Source: Haladaptatus caseinilyticus
GTDB lineage: Archaea > Halobacteriota > Halobacteria > Halobacteriales > Haladaptataceae
DNA length: 64,000 nucleotides
Reading direction: 5' to 3'
Assembly: GCF_026248685.1 (NCBI RefSeq)
Contig: NZ_CP111040.1
Span: forward strand, 496,001 to 560,000
Part shown: in pieces, positions 7,702 to 26,518 of the stretch
How the letters are laid out: each line of letters starts with the position of its first letter
Position numbering within the stretch: position 1 is the first letter of the stretch
Program-made: the position numbers and the translations under genes
The notes under the pieces: model-generated
Seen by the model: only the letters and a program-made list of their open reading frames with translations
What the model was told of the DNA's origin: nothing
The model's database searches: none

Positions 7702-7746
7702 ATGGACTATATTTCTTCCAAAAGCGCAAAAAGGTGGGAACGGTGA
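7702..7746 (+). CDS. candidate 14-residue leader peptide overlapping the next start
   Basis: ATG 7702 opens a 14-codon frame (MDYISSKSAKRWER) ending at TGA 7744-7746, in a different frame from the gene that starts with GTG at 7734. The frame overlaps that start by 13 bases. The predicted transcription start lies at the ATG itself, so the peptide could be translated from a leaderless mRNA, common in haloarchaea. Ribosomes finishing it would then reinitiate at the GTG. It may equally be a chance frame. Confidence 0.3.
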   Translation: MDYISSKSAKRWER

Positions 7747-8243
7747 CCGCTTACACTACCTCGGAGGAGCATCTCCCAGAGGATCCTAATGGGGAGGTGA
7801 CTTTACAAGTCACAGATGGGGACACGAAAGAGATATTCACAACACGAGCGTATATTTCACAAGATCCAGAGGAACTCGCCGATCCAGAGTCACTTACAAT
7901 CGTTCGAGGTCCACATGAGAGTGTCGAAGAGGAGTGGTTCATCGAGATTATAGAAACAGAGATCAATGAGATTGAAATCGACCAAGAAGTATTGAGCGAG
8001 TGCATTAAGCAAAGTAAAGAGAATTCAAATGTTGTTAACGCCCGATCGGATGAAGTTCGAGCGCTATTACTGTATTTAGTCGAAACGAATAGATACGGCT
8101 CCGTCTCAGAGGCTGTTCGGGGTTTGTTAGAAGATCACCTCGCTGATCACTATCCGGATCTCGTGAACGAATACGTCGACATCCGGACAGAGCTTGAGCG
8201 AGAAGAGCTGTCCTCTCAATTAGGTGGCAACCGAAACAAATGA
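7734..8243 (+). CDS. conserved-context protein with RHH-like C-terminus, first gene of UbiD operon
   Basis: 169 residues, strongly acidic, starting at GTG 7734. I recognise no named family. Residues ~100-150 (ARSDEVRALLLYLVETNRYG and SVSEAVRGLLEDHLADHYPDLV) look like a ribbon-helix-helix or similar all-helical DNA-binding or dimerisation segment. The N-terminal ~90 residues have an alternating pattern suggestive of beta strands (GEVTLQVTDGDTKEIFTT). The stop overlaps the ATG of the first UbiD gene (ATGA at 8240), so the products are made together. It may be the operon's own regulator or a small subunit of the decarboxylase. Function not assigned. Confidence 0.65.
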   Translation: MGTVTAYTTSEEHLPEDPNGEVTLQVTDGDTKEIFTTRAYISQDPEELADPESLTIVRGPHESVEEEWFIEIIETEINEIEIDQEVLSECIKQSKENSNVVNARSDEVRALLLYLVETNRYGSVSEAVRGLLEDHLADHYPDLVNEYVDIRTELEREELSSQLGGNRNK

Positions 8244-9742
8244 GCGCAGAAAGTTTTCGCGATTATCTTTCGCTTCTCGATGCCGCAAACAAGACAACAC
8301 GGATCTCTCAGCCGGTGTCTTGGAATCTTGAGGCAAGTGCCCTCACGATGAAGGCAGATCTCACTGATGCCGAGATTCCGATTTTCGAGAATGTCGGAGG
8401 TCAAGGATCTGCCGATGCACGACTCGTTGGCGACCCCTATCGTGGTCCAAGAGGCCGTCCATGGGATCGAATGGCTATAGCACTTGACGTCCCAACGGGA
8501 TTAACCGGTGATCAGTACTACAAGGCGATTATCGATCGGCTACAATCACCGATTCCACCCACGACTGTTGATAGCGGATCAGCCCCTTGCAAGGAAGTTG
8601 TACGGACAGGCTCTGAAATCGACCTATTTGATTTTCCGTGGCCATATATTCATGAAGGTGATGGAGGACGATATTCGAATCTACATACCGCAATTACAAC
8701 CGACCCTGATTCGGAATGGACAGACTGGTCGTACCACCGTGCGATGATCCATTCTCAAAAGAAAGCGAGCATTCTCCTTCTTGCTGGTGAACAGACGCCA
8801 AATCTCTACTATTACAAATACGAACGACGCAACGAACCCATGCCGATCGCAATTGCGCTCGGATCAGAACCGGCAGTATATTTTTCGTCGGTGATGTGGA
8901 TTCCAACCGGTCGTGATGAGGCAGACTTTGCAGGAGCATTAAAACAAGAACCAATTGAACTCGTCAAGTGTGAAACCAACGATCTTTTGGTTCCTGCCAG
9001 TGCAGAATTCATCATCGAGGGAACGGTATTGCCTGACGAACGATTAGACGAGGGCCCGTTTGGAGATTATTTTGGATATATGAATGGCCCTAGGCGATCA
9101 ATGCCCGCATTAGAGGTCGATGCTATTACACACCGTAAGCGACCGTATATCCCGTTTTGCGTAGAAGGGGCCGGTGTCGGCCACACACACAACTCAAGCT
9201 CGACTATGGAAGTGGGTTGTGTTGGGCCCGATGCAACGCTTGGGCTTCGAGCTGCGGGATTTAATGTGGAAAAATGTGTTCCTTGGCGGTTCACTCCACG
9301 GACGGCGTACACAGTTTCTACTGAAAATCCACGACCAGGCTATCTCCATGAACTCGCGAATTTTATTTTCACGACCTGGGGAATGCTCCATATCGATTTC
9401 TTTGTCTTCGTTGATTCAGATATCGATCCATTGGACCAGCGTGCTGTTCTCGAAGCGATTACTATCAACGCAGACCCAAATCAAGACTTCCATCAATTCG
9501 GTGTAGAAACGATGCCGAAAGTACCACTCAACATCTACCAAACCCCTGAAGAAAAAGGAAACGTTGAAACGGGGACTTCAAAGACAAAGACAGCAAAGGC
9601 ATACATCGATGCCACAAGCGATTCTTCTCAAGTAAAGTCCGGATATCTCGACGATGATGAGATCATAGATGAAGCACGAAAAACCCTAGAGGAGGCGGGG
9701 TTAGCGTTCAAAGCAGTATCTTCTCCGGAGACCTCACGATGA
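8240..9742 (+). CDS. UbiD-family prenylated-FMN-dependent (de)carboxylase, catalytic copy
   Basis: 500 residues, normal for UbiD. UbiD enzymes use prenylated FMN to remove or add a carboxylate on unsaturated or aromatic acids. Visible signatures are the NLHTAITTDPDSEWTDWSYHR block with Arg167 in the prFMN/substrate region, EFIIEGTVLPDERL with its Glu, and EGPFGDYFGY (271-276), which carries the catalytic Glu of the family's E-R-E network. The start overlaps the upstream gene by 4 bases, and the stop overlaps the second UbiD-like gene by 4 bases. No UbiX prenyltransferase gene is in the window, so prFMN must come from elsewhere. The substrate is not evident; the setting suggests an aromatic acid. 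Confidence 0.9.
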   Translation: MSAESFRDYLSLLDAANKTTRISQPVSWNLEASALTMKADLTDAEIPIFENVGGQGSADARLVGDPYRGPRGRPWDRMAIALDVPTGLTGDQYYKAIIDRLQSPIPPTTVDSGSAPCKEVVRTGSEIDLFDFPWPYIHEGDGGRYSNLHTAITTDPDSEWTDWSYHRAMIHSQKKASILLLAGEQTPNLYYYKYERRNEPMPIAIALGSEPAVYFSSVMWIPTGRDEADFAGALKQEPIELVKCETNDLLVPASAEFIIEGTVLPDERLDEGPFGDYFGYMNGPRRSMPALEVDAITHRKRPYIPFCVEGAGVGHTHNSSSTMEVGCVGPDATLGLRAAGFNVEKCVPWRFTPRTAYTVSTENPRPGYLHELANFIFTTWGMLHIDFFVFVDSDIDPLDQRAVLEAITINADPNQDFHQFGVETMPKVPLNIYQTPEEKGNVETGTSKTKTAKAYIDATSDSSQVKSGYLDDDEIIDEARKTLEEAGLAFKAVSSPETSR

Positions 9743-11124
9743 CTGTTCGAAACCTCATTTCGATGCTTGAGTCACAGGATGATCTCCTCCACATAGAACA
9801 GTCTGTTCACTGGGCTAATGAAGCACCGGCAATTGGAGCACAAGCAGCGAAGGAAAACGGATCAGCAATCCTTTTCGAAAATGTTCCAGGAAAGACACGG
9901 TTGGTGAGTGGGGCGTACGGTGGACCGGATCGAATGCTCCCGAGGAATCGAACCCCATGGTCACGACTTGCGATGGGAGTGGGGTTGGATAGTGACATAC
10001 CATACGATCAGTTCGCTCATTGGTTTACGAAGCCATCAACCAGAGATTCATTGCCTGATTCTGTGTCTCTTGAGGCGAATCCAGTTGGAGTCGACATGTA
10101 CTCACTTGGATTGCCAGCCCTTTCGGGCGAAGCACCAACAATCACCCTTGGACTGTGTGCGGGACCTATCGACGATAAAACGGTGTGGGCGCCAATCCAC
10201 GCGCGTGTAGAGGACCATGATAGCCTCATCGCCTCAATTCCTGCAGCACTCGGAAAACAATTGACTCATGGTACCGAAATCACTATTGCGATTGGAGTAC
10301 CCACCGCATGCCTCATCGCTGCGAAATTATCGTGGATTGGTGAGACAAACACAGGAAATGCCCTCTCAATGGCACGAACGTATAGCGATATAGCATTCGC
10401 CGATGAACAAGGTGGTCTCATTCCGGCAAGTTCCGAGGGTGTCATTAGTGGAACGGTAGGTGAGAGATCCGACTATCAACCACGGCACAGAGAAGGATGG
10501 GAGAAAGCGACCGAAACTACGACCCTGAAAATTCACGTCACCGATCTAGCGCTACGTGAGGAAGCAATACTCCCCTTTTCACCACTTGGAGCCCCTCTTG
10601 CAGACGATATTCATTTGGCAAGCATCGTAGAGTCGGTTCGGTTGCTACGGCGATTGAATAACTATTGGGGAGTGAGTCCCGTCAAATGGATCCACCTTCC
10701 AGCGGAAACCCACCTCGGGATGTGTCTCGTGGCGACAGAGATCCTCTATGCAGGATTCGAGTGGCAACTCGCGAATACCCTCTTTGCGTTTTCACAGTTG
10801 TTCGACAAAGTACTCATCCTCGACGAAGATACACCACCTGGAAACTTGGCGAGAGCATTCGACGATATGTGGATCAAAGCACATCCATCCCATGATTGGC
10901 ATTTCAGCGAACCACAGGCACCTGCTGCAACAGCAACTGCCTACCGGCGCGATGGGAGGACTGGATCAAGGTTATTTATCGACGCAACATGGGATCCCCG
11001 ATGGGATGACGAGTTCATCGCACCGCGAGTAGATTTCGAATCTTCGTATCCAGAAGACATTAGAGCGTTCGTGCTCGACAATTGGGATGAGATGGGATTT
11101 TCAACGGATCCAGGAGGGCAGTGA
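9739..11124 (+). CDS. UbiD-like protein lacking catalytic motif (probable partner subunit)
   Basis: 461 residues, clearly UbiD-fold by its N-terminus (FENVPGKTRLVSGAYGGPDR, then RNRTPWSRLAMGVGL) and by the AIGVPTACLIAAKLSW and DEQGGLIPASSEGVISGTV blocks. The expected EGPFGD motif after the E-V-x-x-G strand is absent; the sequence there is GERSDYQPRHREGWE. The YRMM/YHR Arg region is also lost (VWAPIHARVEDHD). It therefore probably cannot catalyse decarboxylation alone. The 4-base overlap with the catalytic copy suggests a hetero-oligomer, with this subunit structural or substrate-specifying. It could instead have evolved another role. It is not a decayed gene, since the frame is fully open and composition matches its neighbours. 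Confidence 0.82.
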   Translation: MTVRNLISMLESQDDLLHIEQSVHWANEAPAIGAQAAKENGSAILFENVPGKTRLVSGAYGGPDRMLPRNRTPWSRLAMGVGLDSDIPYDQFAHWFTKPSTRDSLPDSVSLEANPVGVDMYSLGLPALSGEAPTITLGLCAGPIDDKTVWAPIHARVEDHDSLIASIPAALGKQLTHGTEITIAIGVPTACLIAAKLSWIGETNTGNALSMARTYSDIAFADEQGGLIPASSEGVISGTVGERSDYQPRHREGWEKATETTTLKIHVTDLALREEAILPFSPLGAPLADDIHLASIVESVRLLRRLNNYWGVSPVKWIHLPAETHLGMCLVATEILYAGFEWQLANTLFAFSQLFDKVLILDEDTPPGNLARAFDDMWIKAHPSHDWHFSEPQAPAATATAYRRDGRTGSRLFIDATWDPRWDDEFIAPRVDFESSYPEDIRAFVLDNWDEMGFSTDPGGQ

Positions 11125-11127
11125 CAG

Positions 11128-12036
11128 ATGGAACGAATCGGTGTCGGCAAGGGAAGCCCCGAGGGAACGAACAGCGCATATGTCTTCCCAGAACGGAAAG
11201 TGGTGATAGACCCAGGGCCACCAGGTAAAGACTCGTGGCAACAACTGAAAGATGGCATTTCTGCTGCGGGTTTGCAACCGGCAGACGTCTCAACAATATT
11301 TGTTACCCATTGGCATATTGATCACGCTGGACTCGCCCCTCGGCTAGCCAAGATAGCCGATGCTAACATTGCTATGCATAAAGCAGATGCACAACTCGTT
11401 GCGGAATATGGGGATGAACGAGAGCGCCGGGTTGAACGTGACATGCAGAATCTTGAGCAATGGGGAGTTCCAGAGAATATCATCCGGTCAGTACGGGACC
11501 AAGATACACCTTCACCTCTCCCAGACCGAATTCCAGTTCGAGAACTATCCGATGGAGACCAATTCAACGGGTTAGAGGTGATTCATACACCGGGTCATAC
11601 TAGTGGACATGCATCAGTGACAGTTGATGGGCAGCTATTCGTTGGTGATGCTGTCCTCCCAACCTACACTCCGAACGTAGGTGGGAGCGATACACGAATC
11701 AAACAACCACTCCAAACATATTATCAGACACTCGACCGGCTCCAAACACGTGAAGAAATTGCGTATCCAGGCCACGGGAAAAATGTCTCTCTTGGGGATC
11801 GGATTGACGAAATATTTGCCCACCACAAGAAGCGCTCAGAGCAAGTTTTGGGACTTGTTCAGAAACAGGGACCGGTGACACCATGGGAAATCGCAACAAT
11901 TCTCTTCGGGGATATGAGCGGAATTCACGTTAAGCTTGGCGCTGGAGAAGCAGCTGCCCATCTTACCGACCTCGCTGAGAAGGAAGATATCGAATTCGTT
12001 GCAGAGGATCCAGATACGTATTCCTCCAAGAAATAG
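11128..12036 (+). CDS. MBL-fold metallo-hydrolase
   Basis: 302 residues. The beta-lactamase-type metal motif THWHIDHAG gives His61, His63, Asp65 and His66. Further ligands are in HTPGHTSGH, FVGDAVL and AYPGHG, and a helical C-terminal extension follows (HHKKRSEQVLGLV, then LFGDMSGIHVKLGAGEAAAHL). This architecture is typical of hydrolases that act on thioesters or other small acyl compounds. It is the last gene of the UbiD operon, 3 bases after the second UbiD-like gene. It shares the YTPNVGG...PL..Y..TL and LFGD..GIH blocks with the gene at 28736, so the two are paralogs. A role in hydrolysing a CoA thioester or lactone intermediate is inference. Confidence 0.87.
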   Translation: MERIGVGKGSPEGTNSAYVFPERKVVIDPGPPGKDSWQQLKDGISAAGLQPADVSTIFVTHWHIDHAGLAPRLAKIADANIAMHKADAQLVAEYGDERERRVERDMQNLEQWGVPENIIRSVRDQDTPSPLPDRIPVRELSDGDQFNGLEVIHTPGHTSGHASVTVDGQLFVGDAVLPTYTPNVGGSDTRIKQPLQTYYQTLDRLQTREEIAYPGHGKNVSLGDRIDEIFAHHKKRSEQVLGLVQKQGPVTPWEIATILFGDMSGIHVKLGAGEAAAHLTDLAEKEDIEFVAEDPDTYSSKK

Positions 12037-12047
12037 AAAATTGCAGT

Positions 12048-13463
12048 CTATGATTCAACCGGGCTGAACTTAACACCGTATCGTGGAACACCTTCTTGTG
12101 TGTAGATCCGTCGAATTAGCGCCCGAACATCGTCACCGACAGCAACCGTCGTAGGATCAGTGTCTGTGAGCTGTGCTGGCAGTGTAATGCTATCATCTTT
12201 TGCGAAACCAACCTCAATAATTGCAACCCCGTACTCTCCATTTCGTCGCTGTTGTTCAGTGAACTCAGGTGGTGCCCCTCCTTGTCCAATGACCGTCACT
12301 GCTCGAATAGTACCTTGACGTGGGAGTTCGACCTGCTCGAATTCAACGCTACAGTGGCACTCTGGACAGGTTCCTTCCGGTGGAAACGCAAGCCCAGAAC
12401 ATTCCGGACATCGACCAGCTACAAGACGATACCGCTGGTCGAGCGTTCGTCGCCAAGAGGGTAGACTAACGTGAGCACCTCCGCCGGAGACATCAATAGT
12501 CCCAATGTAACCCCGGTTGCGGAGATACGTCGAGTAGGAGATCTCTTCGGTATGGGATTCTTGCATCCAGTTATTGTCGATAGCTCCGCAGAATAGCATT
12601 GCAGTGACGCCACCACCACTCCCAAAGAATATGGCGAGAGTTCTCTCATCACGATCAATTGCAGAGAAACTCTTAGTCAATGCGAGTGGTACACCGGCAG
12701 CACCAACATCGCCAAACTGGTCTGCAATAATACCTCTATTTACGGCTGTTTCATCGATCCGGGTACCACTTATGATCCGAGAGGGAAATCGAGCGTCAGG
12801 CTGATGAATCGCTGCTGCAGCGATGTCATCAACATCACGATCAAATTGCGAGATGGCTTCCGTGACACACCGTTTGATCTCACTGCGTTCATACGACGTT
12901 ATCTCAAGCTCTTCGACTGATTCAGTACCTTGCTCCCGATATCGAATACCGGGAAGTTCATCGACAACAGTAGCTGTTTCGAGGTGCTCTACCTGTGCCG
13001 AATCAGTGATGAGAAATGCCGCAGCACCGGCTCCAAACGGATGATCTATGTCCGCTGGATCGCCTCGTGGTGCATCTGCTGCAATAACAAGCGCAACTCC
13101 ATCGGTTTGGAGCGCTGTGGATAATGCTGGTGCTCCCGAACGAGTACTTTGGGTAAACGTTCGTGCCGAGATAGTCTCAGAAAGTCCCAGCATACGAACG
13201 AACCGTGGAATGAGTTCTTCCTCTTCAAGAGGAGGAGAAGTCGTCGCAAAATGAACAGATGAAACAGTATCGACATCAAACGAACTGTGATCAATCGCAG
13301 ATTCAGCTGCGGCAACAGCCATCGTCAAAACGTCTTCGTCCGCTGTTGGTACACGCTTTGTCTTGATACCAGAACCATTGTATTGGCCCCACGAATCAGC
13401 GACTGTTTTGGAACTAATCTCGTAGCGAGGGAGATATCGGCCTACGGTTGCAATTCCCCTCAT
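12048..13463 (-). CDS. condensing-enzyme (HMG-CoA synthase-like) fused to DUF35 zinc-ribbon/OB-fold
   Basis: 471 residues. Residues 1-~330 follow the thiolase/KAS-III fold of HMG-CoA synthase, including SVHFATTSPPLEE, a substrate His region AIHQPDARFPSR and FFGSGGGVTAMLF. Residues ~335-471 are a DUF35 domain: a CPECSGLAFPPEGTCPEC zinc ribbon with four Cys, then an OB fold. The nucleophilic Cys expected in the ACKxG segment is replaced by Thr107 (TQSTRSGAP), so the condensing half is probably not a classical synthase. In archaea a thiolase, an HMG-CoA synthase and a DUF35 protein form one complex. Here the last two are fused and the thiolase is the overlapping upstream gene. A 4-base ATGA overlap links them. 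Confidence 0.85.
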   Translation of the reverse strand: MRGIATVGRYLPRYEISSKTVADSWGQYNGSGIKTKRVPTADEDVLTMAVAAAESAIDHSSFDVDTVSSVHFATTSPPLEEEELIPRFVRMLGLSETISARTFTQSTRSGAPALSTALQTDGVALVIAADAPRGDPADIDHPFGAGAAAFLITDSAQVEHLETATVVDELPGIRYREQGTESVEELEITSYERSEIKRCVTEAISQFDRDVDDIAAAAIHQPDARFPSRIISGTRIDETAVNRGIIADQFGDVGAAGVPLALTKSFSAIDRDERTLAIFFGSGGGVTAMLFCGAIDNNWMQESHTEEISYSTYLRNRGYIGTIDVSGGGAHVSLPSWRRTLDQRYRLVAGRCPECSGLAFPPEGTCPECHCSVEFEQVELPRQGTIRAVTVIGQGGAPPEFTEQQRRNGEYGVAIIEVGFAKDDSITLPAQLTDTDPTTVAVGDDVRALIRRIYTQEGVPRYGVKFSPVES

Positions 13464-14635
13464 ACTACGCCCTCCTGCATGCGTTCGAAGACATGGACGG
13501 TCGCACTTCCACCACTCCCTCCGACGTTATGGGCGAGCCCATAGCGTGGCTCTTCGACTTGTGTGTGTGCCTCACCGCGGAGCTGTTCGAAGATTTCTAC
13601 GATCTGGCCAGTGCCAGTTGCACCGATGGGATGACCTTTCGATTTCAACCCGCCGCTTGTATTGACTGGCAGTCGCCCAGTGGGATGCGTTACTTCATCA
13701 CGAAGAAGTTTCCCTCCCTCGCCACGGTCACAGAAGCCTAGATCTTCATATGCCATGATTTCTGCAATGGCAAAACAGTCGTGGACCTCTGCAAAATCGA
13801 TGTCATCAGGACCAATTCCAGCATCATCATACGCGCGTTCTGCCGCACGTCTGCTCGCGGGAATGTCTGTGAATGTATCCCGTTGGAATAGGCCGACTCG
13901 ATCGCTCGAAGCACCCATACCTGAAACACGAACTGAGATTTCATCGAGTTCGTTTGCCACCTTCTCGCTTGCAACCAGTACAGCACTTGCACCGTCCGTC
14001 GTTGGGCAGCAGTGATACAGATTGAGTGGATCAGCGACGGTCGGTGCTCCTATAGCGTCTTCCAGAGTACACTCGAAACCCAGTTGCGCATTTGGATTTG
14101 CTGCTCCATTCCGATGGTTCTTGACTGCAACGCGTGAGAGATCCTCAATAGTTGTTCCATACGCGGCCATGTGCGCACTTGCCATCTGTGCATAGACCCC
14201 AGCAAATGTCGTGCCAGAAAGCCGTTCCCACTCAGTCTCGCCACTCACCCCGAGCCACCATTTTGTATGGTCGGAGCTCATATCGGTCATGATCTCGTAT
14301 CCACCGGCCAGTACGAGATCTGCGATACCGGCTCGAACAGCCGTTACGGCATTTCTGAATGCATAGCCGCTGGCAGCGCAAGCATTTTCGACACGGGTAG
14401 TTGGAATCCCATGAAGTCCGATATACTCAGTTACCGCTGGACCACTCAGACCAAGTTGACGTCCGCCAACTCCGAGCGTTCCGATAAACGCCTCATCAAT
14501 ACGATTTCGGTCGATACCAGTACCGACACTTGCAAGCGCACGATCAAATGCAGTTGCAAACAAGGATCGATAGCTCTCATTGGGGAAGGAGCCAAACGGT
14601 GATTGGCCAGCCCCGATAACATATGCCTCCGTCAC
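13460..14635 (-). CDS. thiolase-family protein (SCP-x type)
   Basis: 391 residues starting at GTG 14635. The active Cys lies in VENACAASGYAFRNA and the acid/base His in SKGHPIGATGTGQ. The second Cys motif of degradative thiolases is replaced by HNVGGSGG, as in sterol-carrier-protein-type thiolases. It would cleave or form a C-C bond on a 3-oxoacyl-CoA. It is the first gene of a two-gene unit with the DUF35 fusion, an arrangement like BbsAB or the archaeal thiolase/DUF35 complexes, where DUF35 forms the CoA-binding cap. The minus-strand transcript converges on the UbiD operon. It fits beta-oxidation of ring-cleavage products. Confidence 0.9.
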   Translation of the reverse strand: MTEAYVIGAGQSPFGSFPNESYRSLFATAFDRALASVGTGIDRNRIDEAFIGTLGVGGRQLGLSGPAVTEYIGLHGIPTTRVENACAASGYAFRNAVTAVRAGIADLVLAGGYEIMTDMSSDHTKWWLGVSGETEWERLSGTTFAGVYAQMASAHMAAYGTTIEDLSRVAVKNHRNGAANPNAQLGFECTLEDAIGAPTVADPLNLYHCCPTTDGASAVLVASEKVANELDEISVRVSGMGASSDRVGLFQRDTFTDIPASRRAAERAYDDAGIGPDDIDFAEVHDCFAIAEIMAYEDLGFCDRGEGGKLLRDEVTHPTGRLPVNTSGGLKSKGHPIGATGTGQIVEIFEQLRGEAHTQVEEPRYGLAHNVGGSGGSATVHVFERMQEGVV

Positions 14636-15330: not shown

Positions 15331-16485
15331 ATGGCTCTCATCGAGAGTGCGTTATCAACAGAGAACCGAGAGATACGTGACCGAGCAGCGGAGTTTGCAA
15401 CGGACGTCGTTGCCCCACGCGCAGAAGAGATCGAGGTAACCGACGAGTTTCCACGAGACATAATGGAGGCCGCTGGAGACTACGATCTGCTTGGAATATT
15501 GTTACCGGAAGAATACGGTGGGTTGAACTCAGATTTCGTGTCGTATTGCCTTGCTGTTGAAGAGGTCGCCCAAGAGAGTGGTGCTGTAGCAGAAAGCATC
15601 CAGGGGCACACATTCGCGGCAGTCCCCATCGCGCAGTTTGGAACGGAACAACAATGCGACGAATATCTTCCATCGATGATTGAAGGCGACATGATGGGGG
15701 CAATGCTATTGACCGAGCCAGGAGCAGGAAGCTCTCCATCTGAACTCTCCACTACTGCGGAAACACACGCCGGAGATTATATCATTTCCGGTGAGAAGGC
15801 GTTCGGGACAAACGCAGGGGTTGCTGATCTTCATCTCGTCGTTGCTCGTGTCCAACCGTCCCCCGATGACTCACACGGTGTGAGCGTCTTTCTCGTCCCG
15901 GGGATCAACGAAACATCCGGGTTCACATTCGATCGAACAGAATTCATGGGGATGCGTGGTCACGTGACAGGTGACTCGACGCTTGAAGGCGTTGTAGTAC
16001 CGGACAATGGACTCCTTGGCGAGATTGGGCAGGGCTTCCGCATTGCAATGGGAACAATAGATATGGCCCGAACAGGGCTCGGTGCCATTGGGACTGGAAT
16101 TGCTACTGCAGCATTCGATCACGCAGTTGAATATGCTGGTGAGCGTGAACAGGGTGGTCAACCTGTCGGAACCTACCAGGCCGTTCAGGTTCTGATTGCC
16201 GAGATGGATGCTCAGCTCGATGGTGCTCGACACCTTGTGTATAATTCCGCTACAACGATCGCTCATGAATCGGGCGATACACGAGCGTCGAGTAAGGCAA
16301 AGTTCGTCGCTAGCGATGTCGCTGAGTTTGTCACGCGAAATGCCTTGCAGGTTCACGGCGGGAGAGGCTATAGAAAGGATCTCCCACTTGAGCGCTATTA
16401 TCGCGATGCGAAGATCCTTAGCATCATCGGAGGAACGACGGAAATCCAAAAGACGACTGTCGCTAGTGCTGTGCTTGGGCTATAA
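15331..16485 (+). CDS. acyl-CoA dehydrogenase
   Basis: 384 residues, the standard ACAD length. Visible blocks are the N-terminal helical domain (GILLPEEYGGLNSDFVSYCL), the FAD-contacting MLLTEPGAGSSPSEL and SGEKAFGTNAGVADL, and the C-terminal helices with QVHGGRGYRKDLPLERYYRD and IGGTTEIQ. The enzyme would use FAD to oxidise an acyl-CoA or CoA-activated aromatic side chain to the enoyl-CoA and pass electrons to ETF. It is transcribed alone, starting at ATG 15331 with an AT-rich region upstream. It lies between the dead ALDH gene and the convergent enoyl-CoA hydratase, within the catabolic island. Substrate unknown. Confidence 0.93.
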   Translation: MALIESALSTENREIRDRAAEFATDVVAPRAEEIEVTDEFPRDIMEAAGDYDLLGILLPEEYGGLNSDFVSYCLAVEEVAQESGAVAESIQGHTFAAVPIAQFGTEQQCDEYLPSMIEGDMMGAMLLTEPGAGSSPSELSTTAETHAGDYIISGEKAFGTNAGVADLHLVVARVQPSPDDSHGVSVFLVPGINETSGFTFDRTEFMGMRGHVTGDSTLEGVVVPDNGLLGEIGQGFRIAMGTIDMARTGLGAIGTGIATAAFDHAVEYAGEREQGGQPVGTYQAVQVLIAEMDAQLDGARHLVYNSATTIAHESGDTRASSKAKFVASDVAEFVTRNALQVHGGRGYRKDLPLERYYRDAKILSIIGGTTEIQKTTVASAVLGL

Positions 16486-16799: not shown

Positions 16800-17654
16800 T
16801 TAGCGTTCGGATTCAACCTGGGAGAGTTTCTTAACTTCTTTGTCACCGAGTTCAGCACCAACGAAATCCGGATCACGTTTTTCGAGGAATGCGGCAATTC
16901 CTTCTTTTGCACCTGGAGTGTCAAAGAGTTGGTTCTGGAGTTCACGTTCGTGCGCTAGTGCGTCCCAGAGGGACAACTCCATACCTTCGTTGACAGCTAG
17001 CTTGTCGAATCCAACTGCCTTGTTCGGGAGTTGGGCGACCTCCTGTGCAAATTCGAGTGCTTCTTTTTCTGCGTCGCCTGCCGAGACCAATTCATCGAAC
17101 AATCCGATGTCGTGGCCCTCTTCTGGATCGAGTGTTTCACCACTGATCATCATTTTCAACGCTTTCGAGCGACCAACATAACGGGGGAGGAGTTGTGTCC
17201 CTGCCTCTCCGGGGATAAGTCCGAGATCAACTTCGGGCACACCAATGTTGTACTCCTCATCGTTACCGATGTATCGCAAGTCGCATGCGAGTGCGAACTC
17301 GAGACCGCCACCCATACAGTGGCCATCGACGGCAGCGATGAACAGCGTGTCCGTCGTTCGCATCTTCATGATCGCCTCTTTGCTCGTCTGGCTCGCTTTT
17401 CCAATGTGATCGGCACTCTCGTCCTGGAGCACATTAATGTCAAACCCGGTCGAGAAGAACCGGTCGTTCCCGCTAGCAAGAACGGCAACACGAACCGTTT
17501 CGTCGAATCGAACGCTTTCAACAGCCGACTGCAACTCGATGATCATATCGAGGTCGTGTGCGTTCGCCGGCGGGCGGTCGATACGAAGGATGCCAACGTG
17601 GCCATCCATTTCTGTGCTAAAGTTCTCTAGCTCTAAGTCTTCGAATGACTCCAT
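16800..17654 (-). CDS. enoyl-CoA hydratase/isomerase (crotonase) family protein
   Basis: About 284 residues from ATG 17654 (MESFEDLELENF). An alternative start 27 bases upstream would add an unlikely tail. The crotonase fold is shown by GILRIDRPPANAH, oxyanion-hole segments FFSTGFDINV and HCMGGGLEFALACD, and the catalytic-loop Glu in PEVDLGLIPGEAGTQLLPR. The usual second Glu region is somewhat changed (GEAGTQ). It would hydrate or isomerise an enoyl-CoA, analogous to PaaF/PaaG. It is transcribed toward the acyl-CoA dehydrogenase and lies downstream of the epoxidase operon in the same direction, but ~320 bases separate them, so it probably has its own promoter. Confidence 0.92.
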   Translation of the reverse strand: MESFEDLELENFSTEMDGHVGILRIDRPPANAHDLDMIIELQSAVESVRFDETVRVAVLASGNDRFFSTGFDINVLQDESADHIGKASQTSKEAIMKMRTTDTLFIAAVDGHCMGGGLEFALACDLRYIGNDEEYNIGVPEVDLGLIPGEAGTQLLPRYVGRSKALKMMISGETLDPEEGHDIGLFDELVSAGDAEKEALEFAQEVAQLPNKAVGFDKLAVNEGMELSLWDALAHERELQNQLFDTPGAKEGIAAFLEKRDPDFVGAELGDKEVKKLSQVESER

Positions 17655-17970
17655 ACAATTATACAGTAAACGCCCATCCACATATAGGTTTGGAAGGAAG
17701 ATTGATGATAATTCTCAGTTCAAAAAAGCAGTATCGAGATGAGACAGCGATCAGGGCTCACTTGAGGGAAATCCAACCACAGTATTCGATCACCAACTCG
17801 GAATCTGTGTCGAAATTGATACCTCGGTAAACAATAACCCCAGGTCGATTGGTAGGGAGCATTGCCGACTATCGAATGTAGGGGGCGAATTCGAAGTGAA
17901 GGTGACAAAATGTCACGTGAGCACGTGAGATGGGACGTGGAGTGGTTGGGAGTGTCCGAATACCGTTGTG
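17655..17970. other. spacer between epoxidase operon and enoyl-CoA hydratase gene
   Basis: 316 bases. It should hold the terminator of the epoxidase operon and the promoter of the hydratase gene. I see an AT-rich stretch just upstream of 17654 but no gene. Confidence 0.35.
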
Positions 17971-18162
17971 TTATCGATTCGTATCCGGGCGCTTGCCATC
18001 ATACTTGAGCCGTTCAAACATGGTTTGACAGTTGTCACAGTAGTACTGGGCCTTCGAGATCTCGGACCCAAACGCGGACTCTTGCTTGACGTTGGTTGAC
18101 ATGCAGAAAGGGCAGGTCGGGGTGAACTCCTCCTGCGTCGTGGGGTCATTCATGGTACTCAT
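17971..18162 (-). CDS. stand-alone PaaD C-terminal zinc-ribbon protein
   Basis: 63 residues. Two CxxC pairs (TCPFCMSTN and YYCDNCQTMF) bracket SAFGSEISKAQ, matching the zinc ribbon that forms the C-terminus of bacterial PaaD (CPRCGS...S.FGST.CKA.Y.C..C..PF). In bacteria PaaD is one protein with an N-terminal MIP18/DUF59 domain and this ribbon, and it is needed for maturation of the phenylacetyl-CoA epoxidase. Here the ribbon is a separate gene at the 3' end of the operon, and its ATG overlaps the paaC stop (ATGA). The MIP18 part is encoded at 19126. The likely role is assembly of the epoxidase metal site. Confidence 0.85.
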   Translation of the reverse strand: MSTMNDPTTQEEFTPTCPFCMSTNVKQESAFGSEISKAQYYCDNCQTMFERLKYDGKRPDTNR

Positions 18163-18923
18163 TGCATGGCGAACTCCTTGTTATGTTCACCAGTGAGGGA
18201 TTCGATAACAGACGAAGCGATCGTTTCACTTCCCACGCGTCGTCGAGTCGAGTTCCAATCATCTTGGGAAGGACCCGTACTGTCGATAGCTACAATCGAC
18301 ACTGCAGTATCGTTGAAAAGGTCTTCATAGTGTGAGAGGATGGCAGTCCGAAGTTCCATAGCAGACCGATCAACAAACCCATTCTGTACCAAGGGATCTT
18401 GCTCATCAGTATACGATTCCGGACCAATGAACGATAGGACTGCTGGGAGTGTTTGTTCCAGGGCTTCTTGAAGCTCATCGGGTTGGCTTTCTGCAAGCGT
18501 CGTTAGACGTGCATCGTGGTAGTCGAGATGGAAGTATTCGTCTTCTCCAATCTTTTTCACGAGCCCGTCGAAATCATCTACGGTGATTGATTCGAGCATA
18601 TACCATGCTGCGCGATCAGTAGTTGCAACGGCCACGATATACTCAAGCCAAGTTTCGTTCGATGAATCCAACGGTGGTGGGTTCTGAAATTCCTCTGGTT
18701 CACGAGCTCCTTCGAGCCAATCAGAGTCTCGACCTTGCTGTTCAAGCAGACGCATCAGCTGTCGAATGTGCCCTGCTTCATCTTGGGCAGCACTGGCACC
18801 ACCGATATTGTCCTCGAGAGACGGTCCCGCCAACATCCACTCGGCGTAGCGGTGGGACAACAAGAGCTTCGTATCGGTGATTGATTGAACATATTCCAGT
18901 GCTTCTGTAGACCATTCACTCAT
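18159..18923 (-). CDS. paaC: 1,2-phenylacetyl-CoA epoxidase structural subunit PaaC
   Basis: 254 residues, typical for PaaC. The ferritin-like four-helix bundle shows the QDEAGHIRQLMRLL segment with (D)E-x-x-H and the GEDEYFHLDYHDARL segment; remnants of metal ligands survive although the family subunit is not catalytic. PaaC forms a heterodimer with PaaA and is required for its stability and activity. It overlaps paaB upstream and the zinc-ribbon gene downstream by 4 bases each. Together the operon would convert phenylacetyl-CoA or a related aryl-CoA to the ring epoxide with O2. Confidence 0.92.
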   Translation of the reverse strand: MSEWSTEALEYVQSITDTKLLLSHRYAEWMLAGPSLEDNIGGASAAQDEAGHIRQLMRLLEQQGRDSDWLEGAREPEEFQNPPPLDSSNETWLEYIVAVATTDRAAWYMLESITVDDFDGLVKKIGEDEYFHLDYHDARLTTLAESQPDELQEALEQTLPAVLSFIGPESYTDEQDPLVQNGFVDRSAMELRTAILSHYEDLFNDTAVSIVAIDSTGPSQDDWNSTRRRVGSETIASSVIESLTGEHNKEFAMQ

Positions 18924-19129
18924 AACTCTCCCTCCGGGGTTGGTATATCATGCTCGCCAGTAACCTCCAAGAGGTTTTCTTCCGCGACGACTGCCATGTA
19001 GTTCCAGTCCTCTTCATTGAACGTTGTTCTCGCGTACGATTTTGCTAGACGGCTGTTATCCGCTTCAACCCTACCAACGTGATTAATCTCGTCTCCAGGT
19101 TTGATCTGTGCAAACACTTCGTATCTCAT
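18920..19129 (-). CDS. paaB: phenylacetyl-CoA epoxidase subunit PaaB
   Basis: 69 residues from ATG 19129 (MRYEVFAQIKPGDEINHVG). A longer open frame upstream is the antisense-phase shadow of the preceding gene. The product matches short PaaB proteins: the N-terminal strand YEVFxQ, GRVEADNSRLAKSYARTTFN with the conserved A..YA...F segment, and a C-terminal WNYMAVVAEENLLEV. PaaB bridges PaaAC heterodimers in the bacterial complex. It overlaps the MIP18-type gene (stop/start at 19126-19129) and paaC (18920-18923), so all are co-translated. At 69 residues it is shorter than most bacterial PaaB (~95). Confidence 0.88.
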   Translation of the reverse strand: MRYEVFAQIKPGDEINHVGRVEADNSRLAKSYARTTFNEEDWNYMAVVAEENLLEVTGEHDIPTPEGEL

Positions 19130-19500
19130 AGACTGATTCCGGCGTTCCGCATTTTTTCCTGGACTTCTGGTTCGAGCATGTCTTTCGACCACACGGGGTC
19201 CCAGACGATATCTATCGTAACGGATTCGACCCCTTCGACTGGACGAAGGATACTCTTGATATCGGTCTGAATGAACTCGTATGCCGGACAGCCCATACAT
19301 GGGAACGTCATCTCGACTGTGACATCACCATCTGTTTCGTTGACTTCATAGATCATCCCCATTTCAACCAAACTAACCGGAATATGTGGGTCGGGAATCT
19401 CGTCAATCAACGTCCAGAGTTCCTGCTCGAAGGTCGATGTTTCCTCATCTGGCCCAAGCGTGAATTTGTCAGTATTCGTCGGTGCGGTGTTTATGCTCAT
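19126..19500 (-). CDS. paaD: PaaD-like MIP18/DUF59 maturation protein (ribbon-less)
   Basis: 124 residues. The MIP18 (DUF59) domain is shown by LWTLIDEIPDPHIPVSLVEM, IYEVNETDGDVTVEMTF and the conserved FPCMGCPAYEFIQTDI with two Cys. This is the N-terminal domain of PaaD, an assembly factor for the epoxidase diiron centre. The C-terminal zinc ribbon of bacterial PaaD is missing and is encoded separately at 17971. The gene sits second in the operon, overlapping paaA upstream and paaB downstream by 4 bases. The order A-D-B-C-ribbon differs from bacterial paaABCDE. Confidence 0.9.
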   Translation of the reverse strand: MSINTAPTNTDKFTLGPDEETSTFEQELWTLIDEIPDPHIPVSLVEMGMIYEVNETDGDVTVEMTFPCMGCPAYEFIQTDIKSILRPVEGVESVTIDIVWDPVWSKDMLEPEVQEKMRNAGISL

Positions 19501-20417
19501 GTGAGTGCCTCCAATTTCCCGGACTGGATCATGTTAACGTATTTTTCGTTTGCTGGCCCACGAGACCGCCAACGGTCGATGACATCAGACCACGAAATTG
19601 GTTCGTCGAACAGCCATTGTTTGTTTTCCTCGTCAAAGGCAACCGGAAAGTCATACTCAAGGACGTACTCGCCTGTTTCATCGTCATAATGCGCTGGAAC
19701 TTCGAGATCGAGTTCATTGCACAACGGAACCGTTCGTTCCATCCATGCTTGGCGGAGTTCATCGTTGGTCAAGCCCTTGATTTGATAGTCGATTTGATCG
19801 CTATGCTTTTTCTTGTCGTCCGGGAGTCCAAACCATTCGATAGCGATCGGGAACATCCAGTCGACTGCTGACTGAAGTTTTTGTTTCGTCTTGTCGTTTT
19901 TCGTCGCAAGCCTGCGCATCCACGTTTCACCATGTCGGAGGTGGAATTGTTCTTCTTTGCTTACCTTGGTGAGGGCGCGCTTCCACGGTGCATACGAGGT
20001 ATTTTCGTGGATATCGCCGAGGAGCACGATCCCTGCTCGGTCAAACATCCCGTGTGCGGACACTAGTTCTGCGAAGTTATCGATGTGTTGGTCGAAGCCG
20101 TACGTATTGCGAAACTCATGAGGTTCGCGTCCGTAGACGAGCTCTTCCCGGTTCATACCGAGATCCTCGAGTAATCGGTAGGCGATATGACCATGGCCAA
20201 GTTCGTCCTGAATCACACTCACACAGGAAGTTCGAGCATTCAAACTCGGTGCATTTAACGACTGCTCGTAATAGGCTGGGGCACTCATCAGTTCAGTGTC
20301 TCCGGACACTTTGAGGATCGTGATCAGCGCATCTCGATAGCCATCCGTCATTTCATCTGTCGATTCAATCATTCGCCCATTTTGCAGTTCTTCCTTGAAC
20401 TGCCGTTCGCTAACCAT
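19497..20417 (-). CDS. paaA: 1,2-phenylacetyl-CoA epoxidase catalytic subunit PaaA
   Basis: 306 residues, close to bacterial PaaA (~310). The diiron ligands are visible in the ferritin-like fold: VIQDELGHGHIAYRLLED and SKEEQFHLRHGETWM, both E-x-x-H type. PaaA uses O2 and two electrons to epoxidise the aromatic ring of phenylacetyl-CoA. It is the first gene of a five-gene operon with 4-base overlaps throughout. A GAGGT Shine-Dalgarno sequence lies 8 bases before the ATG at 20417, and a TATA element sits at 20453-20460. No PaaE reductase follows; the ferredoxin at 21448 is the nearest electron-transfer candidate. Confidence 0.94.
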   Translation of the reverse strand: MVSERQFKEELQNGRMIESTDEMTDGYRDALITILKVSGDTELMSAPAYYEQSLNAPSLNARTSCVSVIQDELGHGHIAYRLLEDLGMNREELVYGREPHEFRNTYGFDQHIDNFAELVSAHGMFDRAGIVLLGDIHENTSYAPWKRALTKVSKEEQFHLRHGETWMRRLATKNDKTKQKLQSAVDWMFPIAIEWFGLPDDKKKHSDQIDYQIKGLTNDELRQAWMERTVPLCNELDLEVPAHYDDETGEYVLEYDFPVAFDEENKQWLFDEPISWSDVIDRWRSRGPANEKYVNMIQSGKLEALT

Positions 20418-21447: not shown

Positions 21448-21729
21448 ATGAAAGAGAAACATGAAGTAGAATTCATTAACGAAGAGACCACCATCGAGGT
21501 TTCCGAGAACCAATCAATTCTGGAGGCCGCAGAGGAATCTGGTCTCGATCTTCCCTATCAGTGCCGCATGGGCGTTTGTGGTGTCTGTTCTGGGCTCGTC
21601 ATTCAAGGCGAAGTTGATCAGACTGAAGCAATGTTTCTCTCTGATTCGGAGCAAGATGAAGGATATGTGCTTACCTGCGTCGCTAAACCGCGTTCCGATG
21701 TGAAAATAAAGACGAATACCGGCCCATAG
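21448..21729 (+). CDS. plant-type [2Fe-2S] ferredoxin, candidate electron donor to the epoxidase
   Basis: 93 residues. Four cluster Cys are visible at positions 39, 44, 47 and 77 (CRMGVCGVC...C), in the plant-type C-x4-C-x2-C-xn-C pattern. SILEAAEESGLDLPYQCRMG resembles the ferredoxin domain at the C-terminus of PaaE. No FAD/NAD(P)H reductase domain is attached, and none is seen in the window. Given its position divergent from paaA, it may carry electrons to the epoxidase using an unlinked reductase. It could also serve other redox enzymes. It has a 2-base spacing after the GNAT gene. Confidence 0.92.
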   Translation: MKEKHEVEFINEETTIEVSENQSILEAAEESGLDLPYQCRMGVCGVCSGLVIQGEVDQTEAMFLSDSEQDEGYVLTCVAKPRSDVKIKTNTGP

Positions 21730-22163: not shown

Positions 22164-23816
22164 TCAGGCTGGGTTTTCAGCATGATCTTGTTCCTGTTCC
22201 CGGAGCTTTATTCGTTGTATCTTTCCTGTCTCAGTTCTGGGGAGTTTATCAACGAATTCGATTTCGCGGGGATACTTGTACGGCGCTAGCGTTTTCTTGA
22301 CCGAATTTTGCAATTCGACTATAAGGTCGTTATCCGCGCTTATCTCATCGTTTGGCACGATGACTGCTTTAACGATCTGTCCCCGCTGTTCATGTGGGCT
22401 ACCAATCACGGCAACTTCACTCACTGATTCATGTTCTTCAAGAATTGCCTCAACTTCGGGGCCAGGGATATTGTATCCGCTAGAGATAATCAGGTCATCA
22501 TAGCGGGATTTATACTCAAAACGGCCATCCTCACGTTGAACGAAGATATCCCCTGGAAGACTCCATCCATCATCAACAACTTCTGTCTGCTTGTCTGGCC
22601 GATTCCAATATGTCATACCGGTTGGCCCACGTACAGCAAGTAACCCTGGTGTTCCGTGGGGAAGATCTTCACCCGTATCCGGATCGACAATCTTGCACTC
22701 ATATCCTGGTACTGGGAATCCAGTAGCAGTCGGATCAATTTCGTCAGTGTGGCGGTGACTGACAAAGATGTGCAGCATCTCAGTAGTACCAATGCCATCG
22801 AGAATTTCGATTCCATACTCTTGCTTTATTTGTTCGAATGTCTGCGGTGTGAGCGGCTCACCGGCGCTTACACCCAGTCTGAGAGAAGAGATATCGTACT
22901 CTTTAGGTCCATTTGGATGCTTCGATAAAATCTGATTGTACGCTGTTGGAATTGAACAGAATACGGTGATGCCGTGGTTTTCGATGGCTTCAAGCAGTGT
23001 TTGGGGGTTGGCATTCTCGACAAGACTCGTACTCGCACCGAACCGTAACGGGAACGTCACTAGATCTCCATACCCGTAGGCAAACGGAAGCGGTGGATTA
23101 CCACCGAAAACGTCGTCCTCCGTTGGTTCAATACAATACCGGGCATAAGTGTCGGCGGTCGCCAATAGTTGTCGATGGGTATGGTACGTCCCTTTTGATT
23201 TTCCCGTCGTTCCACTGGTGTATAACATGAGCGCAGGATCTCCCCGGTGTGTCTCGTGTCCACTGAGTTCAGGGGAAGCGTCGTTGATCAAGTCATTATA
23301 ACTGTGAAAGTCATGGCCGATACCATTGCGTTCGGCGACAATAATCTCCTCAAGCGTCTCGAGATTATCGTGAGCCGCCTCTATCTCATCCAAGAGGTCA
23401 TCGTAGACAACGGCTGCGATTGCTTTCGCATCGTTGATGATATAGGTGAGCTCTTTTGCTCGCAACAATTTCATCGATGGGAGTGGTACAGCGCCAATTT
23501 TTTGAGTCGCAAGGCAGGAGACGATCGCTTCTGGTCGGTTCGTAAATCGAACAACGACTCTATCACCTGGCTCAACTCCTAGTTCTAAGAGCGCATTTCC
23601 TAATCGGTTAACTTGCTCTTGGAGCTCACTGTATGTGATTTTCTCGCTCTCAAAGTGAATTGCGACGTTATCTCCACGTCCCTCGGTTACATGTCGATCG
23701 ACGAGTTCAGTTGCAGCGTTGACCGTCTCAGGGTAGTGAACCTCCGGTACTGCGTGTATCAGGTCAGGATGCTCCGCTTCACTCGGGAGATATGACTGTG
23801 GAATTTTGGCTTGCAT
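22164..23816 (-). CDS. acyl-CoA synthetase (benzoate/2-aminobenzoate-CoA ligase-like)
   Basis: 550 residues of the ANL adenylate-forming superfamily. Signatures include the phosphate loop LMLYTSGTTGKSKGTYHTHR, the adenine region DGIGTTEMLHIFVS, the hinge GRFEYKSRYDDLIISSGYNI and the C-terminal catalytic Lys in LPRTETGKIQRIKL. The N-terminus (PETVNAATELVDRHV...ITYSELQEQVNRLGNAL) and overall length resemble benzoate- and 2-aminobenzoate-CoA ligases more than the ~430-residue PaaK. It would activate an aromatic carboxylate with ATP and CoA, feeding the epoxidase or UbiD branch. It is transcribed alone from a TATA at 23844-23853. Substrate identity is inference. Confidence 0.88.
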   Translation of the reverse strand: MQAKIPQSYLPSEAEHPDLIHAVPEVHYPETVNAATELVDRHVTEGRGDNVAIHFESEKITYSELQEQVNRLGNALLELGVEPGDRVVVRFTNRPEAIVSCLATQKIGAVPLPSMKLLRAKELTYIINDAKAIAAVVYDDLLDEIEAAHDNLETLEEIIVAERNGIGHDFHSYNDLINDASPELSGHETHRGDPALMLYTSGTTGKSKGTYHTHRQLLATADTYARYCIEPTEDDVFGGNPPLPFAYGYGDLVTFPLRFGASTSLVENANPQTLLEAIENHGITVFCSIPTAYNQILSKHPNGPKEYDISSLRLGVSAGEPLTPQTFEQIKQEYGIEILDGIGTTEMLHIFVSHRHTDEIDPTATGFPVPGYECKIVDPDTGEDLPHGTPGLLAVRGPTGMTYWNRPDKQTEVVDDGWSLPGDIFVQREDGRFEYKSRYDDLIISSGYNIPGPEVEAILEEHESVSEVAVIGSPHEQRGQIVKAVIVPNDEISADNDLIVELQNSVKKTLAPYKYPREIEFVDKLPRTETGKIQRIKLREQEQDHAENPA

Positions 23817-26117: not shown

Positions 26118-26466
26118 GCTGCGGATGCTGTCTCGAATCATTGGTGTGGGGCAAGCGATGAAGTTTATCGTGTCGGGTGGTCTTATCGATACCGAAGAGG
26201 CTGCTGAGATTGGCTTCGTTGATACAGTTTGTACATAGGAAGATATCGAACGTTGTGTGAACAGTCTCGCCGTGTCGATCGCGGAAAAGAGTCCTGTTGC
26301 ACTGGAAGTTGCTAAAGAAAGTATTCGTGTGGCCTCGCGAATGGGAATCGATGTGGGTATTGATAATGAGGTAGAACTGTTTATCCGACTGTTTACCACT
26401 GTTGGTAAAGACAAGGGTATCGACGCCTTTTTCGAGGGATTTGATACACAGTGGAAGAGGAGGTAG
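26118..26466 (+). pseudogene. enoyl-CoA hydratase, C-terminal remnant with internal stop
   Basis: The frame beginning near 26118 reads LSRIIGVGQAMKFIVSGGLI, then EEAAEIGFVDTVCT, then a TAG at 26236-26238. The same frame continues SVSIAEKSPVALEVAKESIR-like sequence to the TAG after WKRR at 26466. This is the C-terminal ~115 residues of a crotonase. The N-terminal half with both oxyanion-hole motifs is absent. It follows the 3-hydroxyacyl-CoA dehydrogenase gene and precedes an intact paralog, so it is likely a duplicated hydratase that was deleted in part. Confidence 0.85.
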
Positions 26467-26518
26467 GGGCGATTTTCGTCAGGATCATTCCCATAAAACC
26501 ATATAGTTTGACCCTCGT

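Follow-up and report, generated by a model that had tools for sequence, protein, structure and literature searches.

The genes S, A and B of Haladaptatus caseinilyticus, located in the 64,000-nucleotide stretch of DNA analysed here (the window; contig NZ_CP111040.1), probably encode one obligate heteromeric UbiD-type (de)carboxylase, which would share the alpha-beta-gamma architecture of the phenylphosphate carboxylase (Ppc) core and would be UbiX-free in haloarchaea. From sequence comparison we infer complex formation, the roles of B and S and the type of reaction as follows. A, the alpha subunit, would perform C-C bond chemistry via its Glu-Arg-Asp triad, and B, the beta subunit, appears to be an ancient paralogue with a decayed cofactor and active-site half and a retained oligomerisation half, and most likely packs against A in a structural or regulatory role. 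S, the gamma subunit, would probably clamp or mature A in the manner of VdcD and LpdD with their respective UbiDs. The assembly may serve catabolic clusters that handle acids as aryl- or acyl-CoA and in many cases are plasmid-borne, and in haloarchaea it would work without UbiX, on non-UbiX prFMN or on a different (flavin) cofactor.

The four reading frames S, A, B and M are open and tightly packed, and their coordinates and spacings are as given in a preliminary description of this DNA (end/start 8243/8240 for S/A; 9742/9739 for A/B, a 4-base overlap; 11124/11128 for B/M; Table 1). Among 391 haloarchaeal genomes surveyed, S-A-B is present in 85, and the gene order recurs in about 26 genera. 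A lies directly upstream of B in all 87 B-bearing loci (one A being truncated by a contig end), with a spacing of -4 in 77 of the 86 measurable loci and of -1 or -8 in 8 others, and S is found upstream in 85/87. None of the 87 loci has B away from A and the surveyed haloarchaeal genomes contain no case of A without B; the coupling of an active-type UbiD to one without catalytic residues, first noticed in the window, is conserved in the haloarchaea that carry the system, and by extension the two would form the obligate hetero-oligomer that had been suggested. The same order in about 26 genera, the 4-base overlap in most loci and the dN/dS of B (0.08-0.12, purifying selection) together place the arrangement far from chance.

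Table 1. Features of the S-A-B locus and its surroundings (window coordinates).
Feature	Position	Strand	Remarks
S	7734..8243	+	169 aa small subunit; upstream-most of S-A-B
A	8240..9742	+	500 aa catalytic-type UbiD (alpha-like)
B	9739..11124	+	461 aa non-catalytic UbiD paralogue (beta-like)
M	11128..12036	+	MBL-fold hydrolase, HxHxDH motif
HMG-CoA-synthase-like protein fused to ChsH2-type zinc ribbon/OB domain	12048..13463	-	
Thiolase (PRK06064 subfamily)	13460..14635	-	
Acyl-CoA dehydrogenase	15331..16485	+	
Enoyl-CoA hydratase/isomerase	16800..17681	-	
PaaA/PaaD/PaaB/PaaC-like di-iron epoxidase genes	18162..20417	-	94-98% identical to Haladaptatus pallidirubidus
Plant-type 2Fe-2S ferredoxin	21448..21726	+	position of tblastn match
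Benzoate-CoA ligase family protein	22170..23816	-	position of tblastn match

The surroundings of S-A-B are those of aryl-CoA/acyl-CoA catabolism. M accompanies S-A-B in 37/87 loci and only in the aryl-CoA context, while the other 50 loci, most of them in a different pathway, have no M-like gene nearby; the earlier proposal that M is a dedicated product hydrolase, and hence part of the core, was dropped on this ground. Among the neighbour genes probed, none apart from S, A and B is common to both types of neighbourhood. S and B were the only universal partners of A observed.

All three Pfam domains of UbiD are recognised in A (PF01977, 1.2e-69; PF20695, 1.8e-9; PF20696, 1.2e-11). With residues R173, E233, E277, D282, N168, H191 and P226 numbered as in A. 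niger Fdc1, the triad equivalents R173, E277 and D282 are present in 86/86 homologues (R167, E271 and D276 in the window), which agrees with the description of A as a UbiD that keeps its acids and arginine, and the E233 equivalent (E227 in the window) is likewise intact in 86/86. The divalent-metal ligands for the prFMN phosphate in Fdc1 are an Asn-His-Glu set, of which A has lost Asn and His and kept Glu. Asn168, which corresponds to D162 in the window, is lost in 84 of the 86 A proteins (Asp in 39, Arg in 19, else Thr, Ser or His; two still have Asn), compared with Asn in 36 of 39 comparison UbiDs, and all 39 A proteins from the aryl-CoA context have Asp. The H191 position is Gln in 86/86 (Q185 in the window), but His191, unlike Asn168, is variable in other UbiDs too and is unconserved in the A-like proteins of Archaeoglobi and in PpcA. 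At P226, A has an invariant Trp. In Fdc1 the Glu-Arg-Asp/Glu triad is needed for prFMN maturation and catalysis (PMC5818171), and the prFMN phosphate is held by Mn and K (PMC7976604).

B matches UbiD_N (4.6e-12) and UbiD_C (2e-13), while the central prFMN-binding domain reaches an E-value of 0.0063 only, under the curated cut-off. Both acids, E277 and E282, are gone in essentially all B proteins, and the E233 and N168 equivalents are lost as well. The preliminary description had allowed for shifted residues that would supply the missing Glu and Arg, but in no alignment of B with UbiDs are the acids restored. Its statement that B lacks the acids and the arginine is correct for the window protein, but the R173 position, His in the window, is Arg in 35 of 39 close orthologues, so that loss of the arginine is not family-wide whereas the double acid loss is. 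The AF2 model of B (mean pLDDT 78) has a UbiD fold, with Foldseek matches to HudA/Fdc1 (E ~1e-23) and also to VdcC, and conservation is concentrated in residues 301-450, in the C-terminal oligomerisation domain (about 300-450). Taken together, the linkage to A, the purifying selection, the kept oligomerisation domain and the lost acids make S-A-B look like an obligate heteromer. Against such a heteromer counts that translational coupling alone could have caused the conserved A-B overlap, operon overlap being by itself no proof of a complex, and B might work separately as a regulator, chaperone or substrate-binding protein that is merely co-translated with A, its prFMN half perhaps being re-used as a ligand pocket. 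We consider a separate function of B unlikely, since its most conserved part is the oligomerisation domain, since the A and B trees have several internal groupings in common and since both paralogues also occur together with gamma-like subunits in Archaeoglobi.

The N-terminal beta domain of S (about 6-75) resembles the PpcG/gamma subunit, and its C-terminal helical region (84-167) bears a weak, sub-threshold resemblance to ParD/CopG. Against a pooled gamma profile S scores an E-value of 9.6e-5, with 0/60 column shuffles equally good, while the match to PpcG alone is non-significant (0.032, 3/60 shuffles as good); the link passes through Archaeoglobi proteins, the small protein of genome L158 being matched by the PpcG profile at 5e-5. 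Based on these relatives and on its N-terminal half, S is likely a gamma subunit and not simply a ribbon-helix-helix (RHH) protein, so that the earlier label "RHH-like" finds weak support, in the C-terminal half. The notion that S is instead an RHH transcription factor autoregulating the operon draws on the antitoxin matches of the C-terminal region (0.29 in a PDB profile search; 0.025 against NCBIfam ParD for one homologue), all of which are sub-threshold. It appears improbable, as most invariant residues of S fall within the beta domain that matches the gamma profile and as a ribbon strand ahead of the helices is absent from the predicted structure, although this model is a monomer and ribbon formation may require dimerisation. 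A Foldseek search of the S model against the PDB gave no credible match, and the S profile found short C-terminal-type matches in frames of 57-141 aa in Archaeoglobi genomes, missing the gamma genes there.

In the Archaeoglobi-type genome L158, one cluster encodes an A-like protein (34% identity, 5e-87), a B-like protein (27%, 6e-48) and a small protein of gamma type, with an adjoining acyl-CoA ligase, and G565 likewise has A-like and B-like proteins, with two gamma-like ones. The Archaeoglobi clusters (L158, L183) resemble S-A-B in bringing together both UbiD paralogue lineages and gamma-like protein(s), but their gamma genes occupy positions other than that of S in haloarchaea. In a tree computed with the quick search version, haloarchaeal B groups with the L158 B-like protein (98) and haloarchaeal A with both A-likes (96), on which ground a recent origin of B by duplication of A was rejected; PpcB is not among the proteins that B groups with. 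Unlike haloarchaeal B, the B-likes of Archaeoglobi still keep E277, the second acid (E282) being already missing. B would represent a natural pseudoenzyme beta subunit with less decayed relatives surviving in Archaeoglobi, a series that could help to explain the multi-subunit phenol, benzene and naphthalene carboxylases, about which little is known.

The UbiD enzymes characterised so far are described as dependent on prFMN, which UbiX or its fungal homologue Pad1 makes. Of the 117 UbiD-positive haloarchaeal genomes, 32 have ordinary UbiD and 85 have S-A-B; UbiX is present in every one of the former and in no other, and searches with PF02441, TIGR00421 and UbiX protein detected UbiX in 0/85 S-A-B genomes. 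PF02441 matches one long frame each in 40 S-A-B genomes (383-653 aa), as expected of CoaBC and not of UbiX. That a recognisable UbiX was overlooked can be discounted, given profile and protein searches with a positive control and its detection in 32/32 genomes with ordinary UbiD; Haloferax volcanii was included as a control genome free of UbiX. The absence of UbiX was the main surprise of the analysis and is missing from the preliminary description, which had assumed a prFMN requirement that is now called into question for A. The literature collection that was searched gave no account of UbiD without UbiX, of UbiD pseudoenzymes or of haloarchaeal UbiD operons.

A would accordingly use either prFMN obtained by a route other than UbiX or another (flavin) cofactor. 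On balance we lean towards a UbiX-independent UbiD heteromer, with a prFMN-like cofactor from a novel route or an alpha subunit using another cofactor, and with the dead beta subunit and gamma holding the complex together. Two alternatives divide the cofactor question that this model leaves. One, which we entertain tentatively, takes A for a normal prFMN enzyme supplied by a strongly diverged or UbiX-unrelated flavin prenyltransferase or by scavenging; the invariant triad required by Fdc1 and the kept E233 speak for it, and the Asp of the aryl-CoA-context A proteins could still bind metal, but UbiX detection was complete in the set, the PF02441 matches are single CoaBC-like frames and no probed neighbour besides S, A and B is shared by both contexts. 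The other, conceivable though short of being favoured, holds that A has moved beyond prFMN chemistry; it would work with plain FMN, with some other cofactor or cofactor-free, and would catalyse a different reaction in acyl- or aryl-CoA pathways, on their intermediates. It fits the missing UbiX, the replaced Mn ligand Asn168 and the invariant Trp and Gln, and is in line with the Archaeoglobi, whose genomes, unlike the S-A-B haloarchaea, have UbiX and whose A-likes retain Asn168; however, an invariant triad and E233 are hard to explain under lost chemistry, and H191 is also unconserved in those A-likes and in PpcA. If the UbiX-independent heteromer is correct, a UbiD lineage with an intact triad and no UbiX would imply a second route of prFMN synthesis or UbiD chemistry without prFMN, in a widespread lineage (85/391 haloarchaeal genomes) whose metal site is changed and whose two partners are obligatory, and both options are directly testable in aerobic, genetically tractable haloarchaea.

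UbiD heteromers that include small subunits are already known, hence calling S-A-B an undescribed system, as was done initially, is too strong. PpcABCD of Thauera/Aromatoleum/Azoarcus likewise has two UbiD-family subunits and a small gamma, and this core alone exchanges CO2 (PMC6114531). S-A-B shares the joint encoding of two UbiD paralogues and a small gamma-like subunit (via the Archaeoglobi intermediates), and the Azoarcus cluster also has an AMP-binding ligase. In contrast to B, PpcB of Azoarcus keeps Glu/Arg/Glu and so is no dead subunit; relative to Ppc gamma, S is extended by a helical C-terminal half; and Ppc belongs to an anaerobic phenol pathway with the delta phosphatase and UbiX encoded alongside. 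Against the Ppc equivalog models (TIGR02723/4/5), A reaches 161 bits where the alpha cut-off is 564.6 and 92.5 bits where the beta cut-off is 468.95, far under the PpcA and other cut-offs, B reaches 52.7 and 16.4 bits, respectively, and S has no match. Neither a delta HAD-type phosphatase nor a phenylphosphate synthase is annotated within 15 kb on each side on the Haladaptatus and Haloterrigena plasmids. With scores below the cut-offs and these genes missing, S-A-B cannot be filed as a phenylphosphate carboxylase.

The vanillate (hydroxyarylic acid) decarboxylase VdcBCD/VdcCD also combines a catalytic UbiD with a small partner, which is strictly needed, VdcC being inactive without VdcD (PMC8379154). 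Vdc has no second UbiD-like subunit, however, and VdcD binds Zn and has four conserved cysteines, whereas the window S has one Cys and hence no such zinc site. As proposed for S, LpdD is a small UbiD-operon protein thought to aid enzyme loading or maturation, acting as prFMNH2 chaperone of the gallate decarboxylase LpdC (PMC10865409). LpdD resembles the proteasome chaperone Pba3/4, a likeness not seen for the S model, and binds prFMNH2, for which S-A-B genomes have no known means of synthesis. The carboxylases of naphthalene (N47 cluster) and benzene (AbcDA) are multi-subunit UbiD-like complexes that contain several UbiD paralogues (PMC12016498); unlike S-A-B, they are anaerobic and described as prFMN enzymes, and a UbiX-like gene has been reported in the benzene carboxylase cluster (PMC13101534).

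The degenerate UbiD-like protein (B) was detected in 85 of the 391 haloarchaeal genomes searched, spanning about 26 genera; three additional weak matches proved to be ordinary UbiDs and were rejected. Reading neighbourhoods of up to 20 kb around the homologues gave 87 loci, in all of which the catalytic-type UbiD (A) lies immediately upstream of B, one A being cut by a contig end. The pairing proposed in the preliminary description thus withstood a search for B genes standing mostly alone and away from any UbiD, as no locus lacks A upstream. The A and B genes overlap by 4 bases in 77 loci, by 1 in six and by 8 in two, the small protein S is encoded upstream of them in 85 of the 87 loci, and all PF01977 matches in the 85 genomes carrying the S-A-B set are A or, weakly, B. 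In the window, S, A, B and the MBL-fold hydrolase M succeed one another with spacings of -4, -4 and +3 bases, and the nearest relative found is a Haladaptatus pallidirubidus plasmid, whose B is 87% identical. One genome harbors two loci that constitute a natural test of the dispensability of S: in L038 (G213:C1, ~1.21 Mb) A and B are intact beside a short and strongly diverged S homologue (135 aa, 29% identity), and in L070 (G213:C1, ~1.39 Mb) no S was detected at a second A-B pair.

Genes of the S-A-B-M group and pathway neighbours in the window
Feature	Position	Strand	Product
S	7734-8243	+	169 aa
A	8240-9742	+	500 aa, complete UbiD protein
B	9739-11124	+	461 aa, UbiD-like
M	11128-12036	+	302 aa
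Epoxidase genes	18162-20417		PaaA/B/C/D-like
Benzoate-CoA ligase gene	22170-23816		

Two types of neighbourhood surround the set. Most of the 40 loci of the aryl-CoA context, which include the window, contain a PaaA/B/C/D-like epoxidase set; a ferredoxin and an enoyl-CoA hydratase usually accompany it, and the presence of a benzoate-CoA ligase, of an acyl-CoA dehydrogenase and of a thiolase/HMG-CoA-synthase-like pair varies. M is present in 37 of these 40 loci and absent from 45 others, where genes for acyl-CoA dehydrogenase and biotin-dependent acyl-CoA carboxylase surround the set, an AMP-forming acyl-CoA ligase is only rarely missing and a MaoC dehydratase is frequent; L036 and L038 belong to neither type. 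The core is therefore S-A-B and M is part of one pathway, rather than the dedicated hydrolase of the system that it had been taken for. From the neighbouring genes we infer that the window's S-A-B set may help to break down an aromatic acid or a phenylpropanoid via an aryl-CoA.

A domain search recovers the UbiD N- and C-terminal domains in B, whereas the central prFMN domain is matched only below threshold; an AlphaFold2 model (mean pLDDT 78) matches the structures of HudA, Fdc1 and VdcC (Foldseek E down to 1e-23). In an alignment with A. niger Fdc1, whose numbering is used here, R173, E233 and E277 are retained in all 86 A proteins, position 282 being Asp, and the 87 B proteins have lost E277, E282 and W166 and mostly also E233. 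The reported degeneracy of B is borne out by the loss of the acids E277/E282, but loss of the arginine is not general, since position 173 is His in the window protein and in 41/45 B proteins of the other context, and Arg in 35/39 of the aryl-CoA context. B is under purifying selection, with a dN/dS of 0.119 against H. pallidirubidus and of ~0.08 against H. salinisoli, where dS is near-saturated, and is a real but non-catalytic UbiD. Its conservation is focused on the oligomerisation half (residues 301-450), in contrast to that of A, which extends all along the first 450 residues. Residues ~382-434 of B include many invariant positions yet have the lowest confidence in the monomer model, which, given the shallow alignment behind it, offers only a hint of an interface that might fold upon assembly.

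In the AlphaFold2 model of S, five strands make up the N-terminal domain and the C-terminal half is helical. The latter resembles ParD/CopG only below threshold, which lends weak support to the earlier RHH-like assignment. The N-terminal 72 columns match a pooled gamma profile (E 9.6e-5), none of 60 column shuffles doing as well (best 17.0 versus 31.9); against PpcG alone, which is the gamma subunit in phenylphosphate carboxylase (Ppc), the match is not significant. The Thauera Ppc needs no more than its alpha, beta and gamma subunits for CO2 exchange (PMC6114531). VdcC shows no activity unless its small partner VdcD is present (PMC8379154), and LpdD acts as a chaperone that binds prFMNH2 (PMC10865409). 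By analogy with these precedents, S is likely a structural or maturation subunit.

Ppc, VdcCD and naphthalene carboxylase already provide examples of UbiD heteromers that include small subunits, hence the S-A-B architecture is a variant on a known theme, and calling it an undescribed system overstates the case. No report of a heteromeric UbiD in which one subunit is degenerate, or of a UbiD functioning without UbiX, was found in a literature search outside which most subscription papers lay. Identification as Ppc itself was rejected, as the scores fall short of the equivalog cut-offs and, in contrast to Ppc, the neighbourhoods read contain neither the delta nor the synthase gene.

Outside haloarchaea the B profile found one clear relative, in G593, a genome classed as Archaeoglobi-type from its relationships and the genes it carries. 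The cluster there, L158, encodes UbiDs of both kinds, one A-like (34% identity to A, 5e-87) and one B-like (27% identity to B, 6e-48), along with an acyl-CoA ligase and a small protein of 112 aa that resembles PpcG (hhalign 5e-5). In L183, from genome G565, an A-like UbiD occurs together with a partial B-like one and two small proteins. Both B-likes keep the first acid and lack the second. In a tree built by a quick method, haloarchaeal B joins the L158 B-like (SH-aLRT 98) and A joins both A-likes (96), which argues that alpha and beta are old paralogues. The two small gamma-like genes of L183 (G565:C38, 960-3052) differ and lie one on each side of the A-like gene, a layout that may hint that each UbiD paralogue has a gamma of its own. 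More UbiD genes occur in Archaeoglobi-type genomes at L184, L185 and L187, three of them within ~5 kb in L184.

PF01977 is present in 117 of the 391 haloarchaeal genomes, of which 85 carry S-A-B and 32 do not; TIGR00421 (UbiX) exceeds its cut-off in exactly those 32 and in none of the 85 (hypergeometric chance of zero overlap 2.7e-4, a figure that ignores kinship among genomes). PF02441, the family to which UbiX belongs, matched only once in each of 40 S-A-B genomes; every match lay in a long frame (383-653 aa), as a CoaBC would, and the window's genome gave the same CoaBC-type outcome. A haloarchaeal UbiX used as direct query on 79 S-A-B genomes reached at best E 0.003, versus 2e-45 in the positive control. 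UbiX is present in all six Archaeoglobi-type genomes tested, including the two with A-like/B-like clusters. Asn168, a Mn ligand, is kept by 36 of 39 UbiDs used for comparison, the Archaeoglobi A-likes among them, but in 84 of the 86 A proteins Asp, Arg, Thr, Ser or His takes its place. In HudA, prFMN is anchored by a Mn/K site (PMC7976604), and in Fdc1 the triad residues are required for prFMN maturation and catalysis (PMC5818171). A thus keeps its catalytic triad, while its anchor for the cofactor is altered and no source of that cofactor is known in these genomes; it may use prFMN from a source other than UbiX or, with about equal probability, perform other chemistry that is not prFMN-based. 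In the mechanism we propose, A would catalyse a reversible decarboxylation-type reaction through its intact triad (R167/E271/D276 in its own numbering), B, silent by its residue losses, would pair with A via the C-terminal domain, S would be a gamma-type subunit, as profile and gene order suggest, and the cofactor of A would not be UbiX-made, in keeping with the absence of UbiX from the genomes sampled.

Further features of the window were observed near the set. The protein encoded at 12048-13463, whose gene overlaps the thiolase gene by 4 bases, is HMG-CoA-synthase-like and fused with a ChsH2-type zinc ribbon and OB domain; it weakly resembles the BbsA/BbsB benzoylsuccinyl-CoA thiolase and is possibly a one-chain form of a thiolase accessory subunit. 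Between the thiolase and acyl-CoA dehydrogenase genes, 14722-15191 holds aldehyde dehydrogenase fragments (63-69% identity, pieces of a 483-aa protein), which look like a decayed remnant given the intact gene at the corresponding place in Haladaptatus salinisoli (L210:20015-21466). Pieces of another enoyl-CoA-hydratase-like gene lie at 26122-27310, near a 3-hydroxyacyl-CoA dehydrogenase match at 25210-26073.
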